A DNA stretch of 64,000 nucleotides from Dyella amyloliquefaciens. GTDB taxonomy: Bacteria; Pseudomonadota; Gammaproteobacteria; Xanthomonadales; Rhodanobacteraceae. The stretch is taken from NCBI RefSeq assembly GCF_004296575.1, contig NZ_SAYT01000002.1, forward strand, positions 611,313 to 675,312, given 5' to 3'. Position numbers and translations under genes: made by a program. The notes beneath the pieces are model-generated. The model worked only from the letters and a program-made list of their open reading frames with translations, ran no database searches and was not told the origin of the DNA. Below are positions 7,494 through 63,869 of the stretch, piece after piece. Numbering within the stretch: the first letter of the stretch is position 1; each line of letters begins with the position of its first letter.

Positions 7494-7540
7494 GCAGGGT
7501 CGTCCCCGCGATAAAGCATGCATGCGGGGCCGTCCCCGCA
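7494..7540 (-). promoter_or_regulatory. Guanidine-II riboswitch (mini-ykkC) before gdx
   Basis: On the minus strand two hairpins carry the diagnostic ACGR tetraloop. The first is TGCGGGG-ACGG-CCCCGCA (7540-7523). The second is GCGGGG-ACGA-CCCTGC (7509-7494), which includes one G-T pair. They are joined by a 13-base AT-rich linker, and the gdx ribosome site follows seven bases after the second hairpin. Two such hairpins directly ahead of an SMR exporter are the textbook mini-ykkC arrangement. Guanidine binding to both loops is expected to relieve inhibition of translation. Confidence 0.93.
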
Positions 7541-11364: not shown

Positions 11365-11449
<85 letters not shown>

Positions 11450-47281: not shown

Positions 47282-47698
47282 TCACGCGTGAGGCGGCCCC
47301 TTCAGCTCGATCATGTTGCCCTGAGGGTCATACAGGTAGATCGACGGGCCTTCGCCCTTGGCGCCGTAGCGGGAACCGATCTCGCCCACCCGCACGCCAT
47401 GGGCCTTGAGGTGGGACACGATGGTCGCTTCGTCGTAGTTCTCTACCTGCAGGCACAGATGATCCATGTTGTGCCCTTCCGCCCCCGGTCCCGCGCCACC
47501 CAGCCGGCCGAGCTTGCTGTCCAGCACCACCAGATCGATCAGCGAGTCGCCGGCGCGCAGCTGGACCAGGCCGATCTCGTCCTGCCTGCGTTCCTCGCGG
47601 CAACCGAGCACATCGCAATAGAAGCGCTGCATGGCTGGCAGGTCGCCCACGCGCAGCACCACATGATCGATCCGGGTTAATTGGAAGGGAGGGGTCAT
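47282..47698 (-). CDS. VOC family protein (glyoxalase/bleomycin-resistance fold)
   Basis: The 138-residue protein has the two beta-alpha-beta-beta-beta modules of the vicinal-oxygen-chelate fold. It shows IDHVVLRVGDLPAMQRFYCD with a metal-ligand His, NMDHLCLQVENYDEATIVSH in the second module, and SIYLYDPQGNMIELKGP at the end with the metal-ligand Glu. Substrate cannot be told from sequence; many such proteins are lyases or dioxygenases. It diverges from gcvP across about 120 bp. Confidence 0.9.
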   Translation of the reverse strand: MTPPFQLTRIDHVVLRVGDLPAMQRFYCDVLGCREERRQDEIGLVQLRAGDSLIDLVVLDSKLGRLGGAGPGAEGHNMDHLCLQVENYDEATIVSHLKAHGVRVGEIGSRYGAKGEGPSIYLYDPQGNMIELKGPPHA

Positions 47699-47804
47699 GG
47701 CGCTTACCGGGGCTGGGGGCGACCATCTTACGCGGGGTGAGACTCGAGCCGCACCGCGACTGAAGCCGAGGCTCCGGAGGGAGGCAAAGCGGGTCCGGGC
47801 ACCT

Positions 47805-47810
47805 TATAAT
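47805..47810 (+). promoter_or_regulatory. Putative -10 box of the gcvP promoter
   Basis: TATAAT, a perfect sigma-70 -10 hexamer, lies 12 bases before the glycine riboswitch begins, at the expected place for the start of its transcript. The -35 region (around 47782) is weak. Confidence 0.6.
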
Positions 47811-47821
47811 CGTGGTTTAGC

Positions 47822-48134
47822 GTGTGGTGGGAGAAGCGGTGCGAACCGCTGCCGAAGGCGCAAAAGCCCGTAATCGCTCAGGCCCCATACCATCACTCGT
47901 ACCAACACTCTGGAGAGACCGGTCAAGAGTCGCTAACAAAACTACTGCGCGTCCCCGAGGCGGGCGCGGTCGGTGCTCGGAATCCTCATGTACACCTTAA
48001 GTACTTTCCGGTTCCTGCGTGCCGCCCACACCCACCTCGAGAACGCTCGCTACGTTTTGTTAGCGACTCTGAAATCCGGCGCCGAAGGGGCACGAAGCGC
48101 AAGCTTCCAAACTCTCAGGCAAAAGGACAGAGGG
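47822..48134 (+). promoter_or_regulatory. Tandem glycine riboswitch with an expanded second aptamer
   Basis: Aptamer 1 (about 47822-47920) shows GGGAGA, GCCGAAGGCGCAA, CGCTCAGGCCCCA and the closing ACTCTGGAGAG. Aptamer 2 shows GCGCCGAAGGGGCACGAAGC, then AACTCTCAGG and CAAAAGGACAGAGG (to 48134). In aptamer 2 the arm that is normally a short hairpin just after TGGAGAG is about 150 bases long. It is closed by a perfect 16-bp stem, AGAGTCGCTAACAAAA (47926-47941) with TTTTGTTAGCGACTCT (48055-48070). A hairpin ACGTGC/GCACGT (48142-48158) follows and may be part of the switch. Tandem aptamers bind glycine and turn on the glycine cleavage genes. Confidence 0.92.
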
Positions 48135-48208
48135 GCGCTTCACGTGCGGCTTGCACGTCCGGCCGTCATTGGTCCCGCTCCTCTATTGCCATCCCGGAAG
48201 CCCCTGCC

Positions 48209-51100
<2,892 letters not shown>

Positions 51101-61580: not shown

Positions 61581-61610
61581 CCAGCCATTGTAACGATCAC
61601 GCCGCCTTCC

Positions 61611-61693
61611 CTGTAGGAGCGCACCCAGTGCGCGAAAAGCCTACGGAGCTGTAACCCCAGACTCCGCGGTCGCGCACTGGGTGCGCTCCTACA
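61611..61693. repeat. Interspersed repeat, family A copy 2 (inverted)
   Basis: An 83-base element with the same ends as 54725-54809 (GTAGGAGCGCACCCAGTGCG and its complement; 24-25 bp). Its inner part (AAAAGCCTACGGAGC...) matches the reverse complement of copy 1's inner part (AAAAGCCAACGGCGC...), so the two copies are inverted relative to each other. It sits between the divergent... end of the S46 peptidase gene and the start of miaA. Confidence 0.85.
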
Positions 61694-61715
61694 AAGGGGG
61701 AAGTGGCGCGGATCG

Positions 61716-63869
61716 TCAGTGGGCAGGAACGCCCAGCTCCTTCAACAGCTGCGGCGCCGGGTACACCTTGTCCATCAGCCAGCGCATGTAGCGCAGGTCC
61801 ACGTGGATGGCGCGCTTGTAGCGTGGATCGAACATCCAGCTCGCGCTCACCGCCTCCCAGTTGCTGTCGAAGTTGAGGCCGACCAGTTCGCCCTTGGCGT
61901 TGAGCACGGGCGAGCCGGAGTTGCCGCCGGTGGTGTCGAGGTTGCTGAGGAAGTCCACCGGCATGGCGCCGGTCTTCGCGTCGGCGTAACCGGCATAGTC
62001 GCCCCGCGCGATGGCGTCCAGCAGCGGCTTGGGCGCATCAAACGGCTCCACGCCGGTGTTCTTCTCCACGATGCCCGCCGTTGTGGTGAGCGGCTGGTAG
62101 ACGACCGCATCGCGCGCCTGCAGCGGCGTGACCTTGCCGTAGCTCACGCGCAGCGTGGAGTTGGCATCGGGATATACCGCGCGGCCCTGCTTCTCGCGGT
62201 AGGCGATCAGCGCGTCCATATAGGCCGGCCGCAGGCGCAGTAGGTCGCCCTCGCGCGCCTTGCGCTCTTCCTCCATGCGCAGCAACGCCGGCTGCAGCTT
62301 CGCCGCCAGCACCAGCAGCGCGTCGTCCGACTTGGCCAGCTCCGCCGGCTCGGCCGTCAGCCAGTGCAGGCGCTGCGCTTCGTCGCCCAGGTGGGTGGCC
62401 GCGTAGATCTTGTCCAGCGTGGCCGTCAGCTCAGCCGGCGTGCGTCCGAACGCGGCGTCGAACTCGGGCAACCGCTGCGCATCGGGCAGCTTCTGATAGC
62501 GCGTCAGCAGCGAAACCAGCAGTTGCTTCTCGACCTTCGGGTCATAACGGCGCTGCACCTGGCGCAGCATGCCGGCCGTCAGGTCTTCATCGCGCTGCTG
62601 GTAACCGCTTTCGCGTTGCGCATCGGGCCTGGCGCGTTCGTGGGCAAGGCGCTGCAGGGTCAAGGCCGAACGCATGAGTTGCGTCTGCGTCTGCATCACG
62701 GCGAGCAGCAGGTCCCGCTCGCGCGTGGCGTTGCCGGTGGCAATCAGCCTCGCAACTTCGTCGATCTGGGGCCGCAACGTGGCAGCCGATGGCTGCGTGG
62801 CCAGCCACGCCAGCATCGCCTCCTCGTCCTTGCGGCGGATGGCGACCGCATCGCTGCGCTTGAGTCCGTCGAGCTCGCCGCTGTAGCGCTTGATGTTGTT
62901 CTTCAGCGACTGCAGCTGCGAGGCATAGCGGATGGTCGCCTGGCGGTCGGTGTGACCGACCTCCTCGATCACGTCCTGCAACTGGCGCAACACGTCCACC
63001 GTGGTGGGCAGGCGCCACTGCACCTGGTCGGCAAACTCGGCGGCGGTACGGTGGCGATAGGTGACGCCCGGATAGCCCGCCAGCATCACGAAGTCGCCCT
63101 CGTGCACGCCCTGTGCGGCGATCTGCAGATGCGCCGGCGGGTGGTACGGCACGTTGTCCTTGGCGTAGTCGGCCGGCTTGCCATCCGGGCCCACATAGGC
63201 GCGCAGGATGGTGAAGTCGCCCGAATGGCGCGGCCACACGAAGTTGTCCACCTCGTCGCCGTAGTTGCCGATCGCGCGCGGCGGCGCGTAGACCAGGCGC
63301 ACGTCGCGCAGCTCCAGCTGCTTCACCAGGTAGAAGTCGCGGCCATAGAACATGTTGACTACGCTGCAGCGCATGCCGGGCTCGCGCTCGCATTCGGTCA
63401 CCAGCGCCTTGCTGGCGGTGTCGATGGCGTCGTAGTACGCACGCCCCGTCTTGCCCTTGGCCGCGCCGAGCACCTTATCGGTGACCTTGTCGAAACCGGT
63501 GGTGACGCGCAGGCGGAAATCGGGGTTGGCCGGCAGCTCTTCCGCGCGCTCGTGCGAGACGAAGCCGTTCTGGATGAGATCGCGTTGTGCGTTGCTGTTG
63601 TACTGGATGACACCGAAGGCCACGTGGTGGTTGGTCAGCACCAGGCCATCGTTGCTGACGAAGGCACCGGTGGCGCCGCCCACCTTCACCACTGCGCTGA
63701 GCGGCGCCTTGGTTAGATCGGCAAGATCGGCGGGATTGCCCTGGAAACCCGCGGCATGCAGTTGCTTGGCGATGCTGGGCAGCTGCGAAGGCATCCACAT
63801 GCCTTCATCCGCGTGCGCTGTCGTAGCAAGCACCATGACCATGACCCACCCCATCTTCTTCAAACGCAT
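61716..63869 (-). CDS. S46 family dipeptidyl peptidase, exported
   Basis: S46 enzymes (DPP7/DPP11) remove dipeptides from peptide N-termini in the periplasm. The 717-residue protein has a signal peptide (RLKKMGWVMVMVLATTAHA), then DEGMWMPSQLPSIAKQL. The catalytic triad is His in LTNHHVAFG, Asp in GDEVDNFVWPRHSGDF and Ser in TTGGNSGSPVLNA. Eighteen residues after the catalytic Ser, in FDSNWEA, stands Ser. In Bacteroidetes DPP11 this position is Arg (acidic-residue preference) and in DPP7 Gly; Ser is, from memory, the state in some proteobacterial DPP11 proteins. An acidic preference is therefore only a guess. The start at 63869 is chosen for the signal peptide. Confidence 0.93.
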   Translation of the reverse strand: MRLKKMGWVMVMVLATTAHADEGMWMPSQLPSIAKQLHAAGFQGNPADLADLTKAPLSAVVKVGGATGAFVSNDGLVLTNHHVAFGVIQYNSNAQRDLIQNGFVSHERAEELPANPDFRLRVTTGFDKVTDKVLGAAKGKTGRAYYDAIDTASKALVTECEREPGMRCSVVNMFYGRDFYLVKQLELRDVRLVYAPPRAIGNYGDEVDNFVWPRHSGDFTILRAYVGPDGKPADYAKDNVPYHPPAHLQIAAQGVHEGDFVMLAGYPGVTYRHRTAAEFADQVQWRLPTTVDVLRQLQDVIEEVGHTDRQATIRYASQLQSLKNNIKRYSGELDGLKRSDAVAIRRKDEEAMLAWLATQPSAATLRPQIDEVARLIATGNATRERDLLLAVMQTQTQLMRSALTLQRLAHERARPDAQRESGYQQRDEDLTAGMLRQVQRRYDPKVEKQLLVSLLTRYQKLPDAQRLPEFDAAFGRTPAELTATLDKIYAATHLGDEAQRLHWLTAEPAELAKSDDALLVLAAKLQPALLRMEEERKAREGDLLRLRPAYMDALIAYREKQGRAVYPDANSTLRVSYGKVTPLQARDAVVYQPLTTTAGIVEKNTGVEPFDAPKPLLDAIARGDYAGYADAKTGAMPVDFLSNLDTTGGNSGSPVLNAKGELVGLNFDSNWEAVSASWMFDPRYKRAIHVDLRYMRWLMDKVYPAPQLLKELGVPAH

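Follow-up and report, generated by a model that had tools for sequence, protein, structure and literature searches.

The outsized arm in the second aptamer of the gcvP glycine riboswitch of Dyella amyloliquefaciens is best read as a tolerated passenger, a non-autonomous MITE-like element with IS5-type ends that lies in the P2 loop of aptamer 2. We give this reading a probability of about 0.88. The element is called MITE-like because of its terminal inverted repeats, the TNA duplications of its family and an IS5-family element with the same ends. According to this reading, a palindromic mobile element would have inserted into the apical loop of P2 in the second aptamer, most likely by transposition in trans through an IS5-family transposase; its 143 bp leave no room for a transposase of its own. 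The DNA analysed was a stretch of 64,000 nucleotides, the window, and positions are counted from its first base. The features discussed are the following:

47818-47902, plus strand: glycine riboswitch aptamer 1 (RF00504, 45.0 bits, cut-off 32)
47908-47923, plus strand: aptamer 2, 5' part, with P1, GGAGAG and the P2 5' strand CCGG (leader alignment, junction and P1/P2 pairs of the predicted fold)
47924-48072, plus strand: stretch replaced by 2-3 bp in the empty sites of 19/19 other genus genomes (genus leader comparison)
47927-48069, plus strand: putative MITE-like mobile palindromic repeat, 143 bp (ends and length as in other copies; 23-copy alignment)
47927-47942, plus strand: left terminal inverted repeat GAGTCGCTAACAAAAC (0 mismatches to GAGYCGCTAACAAAAC)
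47988-48065, plus strand: sX9 match, the 3' half of the element (RF02228, 51.4 bits, cut-off 44)
48054-48069, minus strand: right terminal inverted repeat, with the same sequence as the left one when read on the minus strand (0 mismatches)
48073-48140, plus strand: aptamer 2, 3' part, with the P2 3' strand, GCCGAAGG, P3, CTCAGGCA and P1 (RF00504 match; first 60 bases the same in five relatives)
48209-51100, plus strand: gcvP, glycine dehydrogenase, ATG at 48209 (open frame; similarity to a Dyella japonica locus)

The gcvP leader and its arm

A preliminary description of this DNA had placed a tandem glycine riboswitch upstream of gcvP. A covariance model search bears this out, with both aptamers above the RF00504 cut-off. 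The leader shares with the known tandem riboswitches of gcvP leaders two aptamers above cut-off and the retention of the conserved columns. In the second RF00504 match (48059-48140, 41.4 bits, cut-off 32) the 5' strand is supplied by the end of the insert itself; the actual 5' sequence of aptamer 2, CTCTGGAGAGACCGG, lies upstream of the insert at about 47908-47922. We take the downstream frame to be gcvP from what is known of the protein and from the riboswitch context, and not from a family search. The best-matching gcvP loci belong to Dyella japonica (94%) and Dyella sp. C11 (93%, both as best-segment identity). Two loci titled Bacillus subtilis (L063) and Tolypothrix campylonemoides (L070) carry a gcvP that is 83% and 82% identical to that of the window, with the same leader type; these contigs are probably contaminant or mislabelled.

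In the first hairpin of aptamer 2, GGAGAG and GCCGAAGG are 163 nt apart. The 46 named leaders have 11-39 nt here, whereas the P2 loop of aptamer 2 in the window has gained 147 nt. The outsized closed arm was seen correctly before; its closing stem had been given as a perfect 16 bp and is in fact a perfect 17 bp (47926-47942 with 48054-48070), in the sequence as well as in the predicted fold. The further structured core that had been described inside the arm is indeed structured, but it is the remainder of a single imperfect palindrome, with 71% agreement between the 145-base element and its reverse complement. The predicted fold energy of the arm is -74.2 kcal/mol, compared with a mean of -42.4 (sd 3.6) kcal/mol for shuffled sequences, which corresponds to a z of -8.8, and 0/200 shuffles reached so low a value. 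The 143-bp element pairs 16/16 at its ends and holds no transposase. A scan of 47680-48260 found no terminator or promoter in the arm, weak evidence because the leader's own promoter was missed too. A minus-strand match to MIR1437 (32 bits against a cut-off of 168) is regarded as a chance match to the palindrome. Elsewhere in the window there are a Guanidine-II riboswitch (mini-ykkC; 7495-7539, minus strand, 38.6 bits, cut-off 32) and a tRNA gene (11365-11446, plus strand, 53.4 bits).

Around the insert the riboswitch appears well preserved. Once the insert is omitted, 103/104 of the columns with at least 95% conservation across 62 leaders are kept in the window, and the sole changed column lies in aptamer 1. 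The same test on these 62 other leaders gave 0 mismatches in 34, one in 13 and more in 15; the set comprises 43 named and 19 genus leaders, some genomes being present twice and L044, L062 and L070 having been dropped by the pattern. The first 60 bases past the insert junction are identical in five relatives, the sixth input, L123, being unmatched. Between aptamer 2 and the start codon the window has a 15-base stretch that is missing from four close relatives. The minimum-energy fold of the leader, a prediction with a low ensemble frequency of 0.0008, keeps P1 and the P2 CCGG pairs of aptamer 2 and puts the element on top as a rod. In this arrangement the element would fold as a rod above P2 and leave the glycine-binding core free to form. 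Judged by the conserved columns, the glycine-binding parts look intact, as had been proposed, and glycine sensing is probably kept despite the insert. The insertion would be tolerated because the P2 loop is unconserved and the element is itself a palindrome, and the arm presumably has little or no regulatory role.

Empty sites in related leaders

The arm is absent from all 46 named gcvP leaders that were examined (L033-L078, out of 80 gcvP loci), where GGAGAG and GCCGAAGG are 11-39 nt apart. A spacing of 16 nt was listed for 27 of them and one of 17-39 nt for the other 19; one of the 16-nt entries, L053, refers to aptamer 1 of that leader, and its aptamer 2 has a spacing of 11 nt. Likewise the arm is absent in 19/19 other genus genomes, a set that overlaps with the named leaders. 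There, the match to the window runs to 47923 and resumes at 48073 or 48074, with 2-3 bp in between. Eight of the 19 empty sites were printed, and their loop is ACCGGTTGAATCCGGC in five and ACCGGTTCAATCCGGC in three; the remaining 11 loci were outside the pattern or range of the loop-sequence script. The preliminary description had held that absence of the arm from most relatives, together with a non-functional aptamer 2, would speak against a composite riboswitch. The absence was found, while the conserved sequence around the insert gives no sign of a broken aptamer 2.

The window site is 147 nt longer, a net gain composed of 143 + 3 + 1: the copy is flanked by CAA on the left and by TGA and then one more A on the right. 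Starting from the loop ACCGGTTGAATCCGGC, as seen in two close relatives, insertion at TGA predicts TGA on both sides, and the window differs from this. Erosion of the duplication or a different ancestral loop is plausible. The imperfect duplication counts against a mobile origin, as does the finding that the window copy is the only one found in its own genome. In another Dyella genome (G078, contig C43) the single sX9 copy lies at 67232-67374 on the opposite strand, about 5.3 kb downstream of that genome's own empty gcvP leader (61605-61954).

The dispersed repeat family and a candidate parent

Matches to sX9 at E <= 0.001 occur in 28/147 genomes of the taxonomic family, 17 above the family cut-off, in 5/20 genomes of the genus and in 13/398 genomes sampled across the phylum, 4 above cut-off; the genome of the window is included in each count. 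The largest numbers of matches per family genome were 24 (G008), 21 (G111) and 14 (G037). The whole repeat unit could be aligned for 23 copies from ten genomes with a mean column identity of 89%, and the copies in other genomes lie at unrelated loci. Their terminal repeats are GAGYCGCTAACAAAAC, facing each other. Among 20 loci scanned, no known RNA family other than sX9 itself came above cut-off in the other copies.

An exact 3-bp TNA duplication flanks 15/22 other full-length copies. This count is made up of 12 copies from the end and duplication scan, which lists 14 full-length copies besides that of the window, together with L004 and 2/7 copies outside the genus. The scan itself took in 19 loci and yielded 15 full-length copies, 12 of them with an exact duplication (TTA, TAA or TCA); inexact were L032 (GTA/TTA), L146 (TAA/CAA) and the window (CAA/TGA). 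L004 has TAA/TAA flanks and is absent from the list owing to an extra base in its end. The low figure of 2/7 outside the genus, where the borders are approximate, counts against mobility, and so does that of 0/3 exact duplications among the 64-bp short forms. These short forms (L154, L158, L175) have the same ends with the inside mostly deleted, and further end pairs at 64-bp spacing occur in G113 and G151. When the joined flanks of two G113 copies were searched, an uninterrupted site was found for both in G151 (91% and 93% identity) and for one of them in G124 (87% identity); other genomes gave part-matches, and G113 itself matched in two slightly overlapping pieces.

Outside the genus, an sX9-like core is bounded by quite different, again mutually complementary ends at L013, L015, L017, L018, L022, L026, L030 and L193, in a scan of 43 loci, in 19 of which the script detected no core. 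One and the same core seems to travel with different terminal repeats. At L164:1331-1518 and L166:1501-1727 the terminal repeats of the MITE-like element enclose other internal sequence, which has a pair of palindromic repeats of the GTCAT-CCGG type.

The palindrome is maintained across the family. In the 23 copies, 13/47 pairs are changed on both sides, and five of five covariation measures lie above all 500 shuffles and every slid version, a result somewhat favoured by taking the counted structure from the same 23-copy alignment. The window copy forms 46/47 pairs despite 19 differences from the consensus, which leaves room for some selection on the arm; the other copies form 42-47/47. The preliminary description had proposed to look for covariation of the stem in relatives. 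The stem does covary, among dispersed repeat copies and not among gcvP leaders, and this therefore shows selection on the palindrome of the element and not on a gcvP arm. The covariation tells nothing of a function for gcvP, nor whether the constraint acts on RNA or DNA. Three G-U pairs of the sX9 strand are near-invariant (22-23/23 copies), which raised the idea of strand-specific RNA selection. This was rejected: there are A-C positions as well, which would read as G-U on the opposite strand (e.g. 13/23), and hence no strand preference is claimed.

In 13/22 other copies (L004, L005, L008, L010, L031, L032, L143, L145, L148, L149, L150, L153, L190) the duplicated triplet also serves, on one strand, as the stop codon that ends an open frame of 100 codons or more. 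Since the TNA duplication is itself the stop codon, the open frame keeps its stop. The background in the same flanks is 115/1001 TNA triplets; the contrast is weaker against TNA triplets that are not wholly inside such frames (6/19). For frames of at least 150 codons the figures are 12/22 copies versus 74/1001 of all TNA triplets or 14/80 of those not wholly inside frames, and for at least 200 codons 10/22 versus 44/1001 or 15/139. Some of the copies may not be independent, and this placement could reflect the survival of harmless insertions just as well as target choice.

A candidate for the parent type is an 864-bp element on the Xanthomonas citri plasmid pF (L188:2504-3367), annotated as an IS5 family transposase. 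Its ends have 0 and 1 mismatches to the 16 bases GAGCCGCTAACAAAAC, TAA lies on both sides, and the N-terminal frame has a match to DUF4096 ('putative transposase of IS4/5 family') with E 9.7e-28. The 16-base ends and the 3-bp TNA duplication are thus common to this element and the insert; however, the former has 864 bp with a transposase and the latter 143 bp without one, and the sequences differ inward of the ends. Ends that start with GAG and 3-bp TNA duplications are marks of the IS1031 group of the IS5 family. Both features are seen here, which makes the element a candidate member of that group.

The left end of the IS was found in 1/233 family genomes, G150. This genome has 14 sites of element ends, and in the five loci read the ends lie 46 bases from the contig end; the sequence inside the ends resembles the Xanthomonas IS in 55/64 and 56/63 aligned columns. 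A multicopy parent element may have broken the assembly there. A C-terminal piece of the transposase was found in 0/20 genus genomes, G150 included, in a search that had no positive control; this counts against the main reading. An autonomous parent within Dyella was considered and set aside: the left end occurs in G150 only, the contigs stop there, and the IS body is absent from the G150 assembly as searched.

Alternative readings and meaning of the insertion

The insertion is private to this genome and its duplication is eroded, which would also fit a damaged aptamer 2, with gcvP misregulated and the leader decaying. The changed conserved base in aptamer 1 and the 15-base stretch that four close relatives lack point in the same direction. 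We nevertheless consider damage unlikely. The leader retains 103/104 conserved columns, in line with the 34 leaders without and the 13 with one mismatch among 62, five relatives share the first 60 bases past the junction without change, and P1 and P2 persist in the predicted fold. The preliminary description had suggested an added riboswitch domain, be it a sensor, a protein site or a spacer for cooperativity. This idea is not supported, given the absence of the arm from 46/46 named leaders and 19/19 genus genomes and its repetition at unrelated loci. A related version, that the insert was exapted after its arrival and now alters folding kinetics, aptamer cooperativity, transcript stability or protein binding, seems to us quite improbable. 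The terminal repeats are perfect (0 mismatches), 46/47 pairs are kept and the riboswitch is otherwise conserved, and on these grounds the cell may well make use of the composite RNA. However, the arm is found in this genome alone among those examined, and other copies keep 42-47/47 pairs without any riboswitch, hence the pairing needs no local function. We see a similarly slim chance that exaptation has produced a fusion of riboswitch and mobile sRNA-like hairpin, which might respond to a second signal via sX9-type interactions.

The RF02228 match above cut-off might also be taken to mean that sX9 is here a separate sRNA gene, which has a promoter and a function of its own and is nested in the leader by chance, and copper-induced sX9 transcripts have been reported in Xanthomonas (PMC10924375). 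We hold this to be very improbable. RF02228 spans one half of the palindrome while the element ends lie outside the match, the copy number is like that of a repeat, and no sigma-70-like promoter was found in 47680-48260, a weak point because none was found for the leader either.

A comparable arrangement appears in the pneumococcal trp leader, where, according to PMC3049150, a BOX repeat lies between two T-box riboswitches, likely folds independently and apparently leaves regulation intact. Both cases have a structured small repeat in a tandem regulatory leader; the BOX repeat sits between two riboswitches, whereas the Dyella insert sits inside the hairpin loop of one aptamer. A 2024 review notes that sRNAs derived from MITEs have been reported and regards the formation of riboswitches by MITEs within mRNAs as conceivable (PMC10969869). 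The sRNA sX9 ranks third in a table of the 20 most prevalent ones in bacteria, and that part of the paper does not mention mobility (PMC9029176). Our literature search, which did not extend to the original sX9 report, found no account of sX9 as a mobile repeat and none of a glycine riboswitch that hosts a mobile element, although such accounts may exist.

The model of the Xanthomonas sRNA sX9, RF02228, is matched over its full length by the 3' half of the insert. In contrast to this model, the repeat itself is a palindrome of about twice that length, with terminal inverted repeats and TNA duplications. This suggests that RF02228 describes half of a mobile repeat, and if so its abundance reflects copying and not a conserved sRNA function. 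On the main reading, a natural insertion explains an apparently novel riboswitch architecture: about 150 nt can be accommodated in the P2 loop of a glycine aptamer while the conserved sequence around it gives no sign of decay. The likely mobile nature of RF02228 is the most useful by-product of this analysis.
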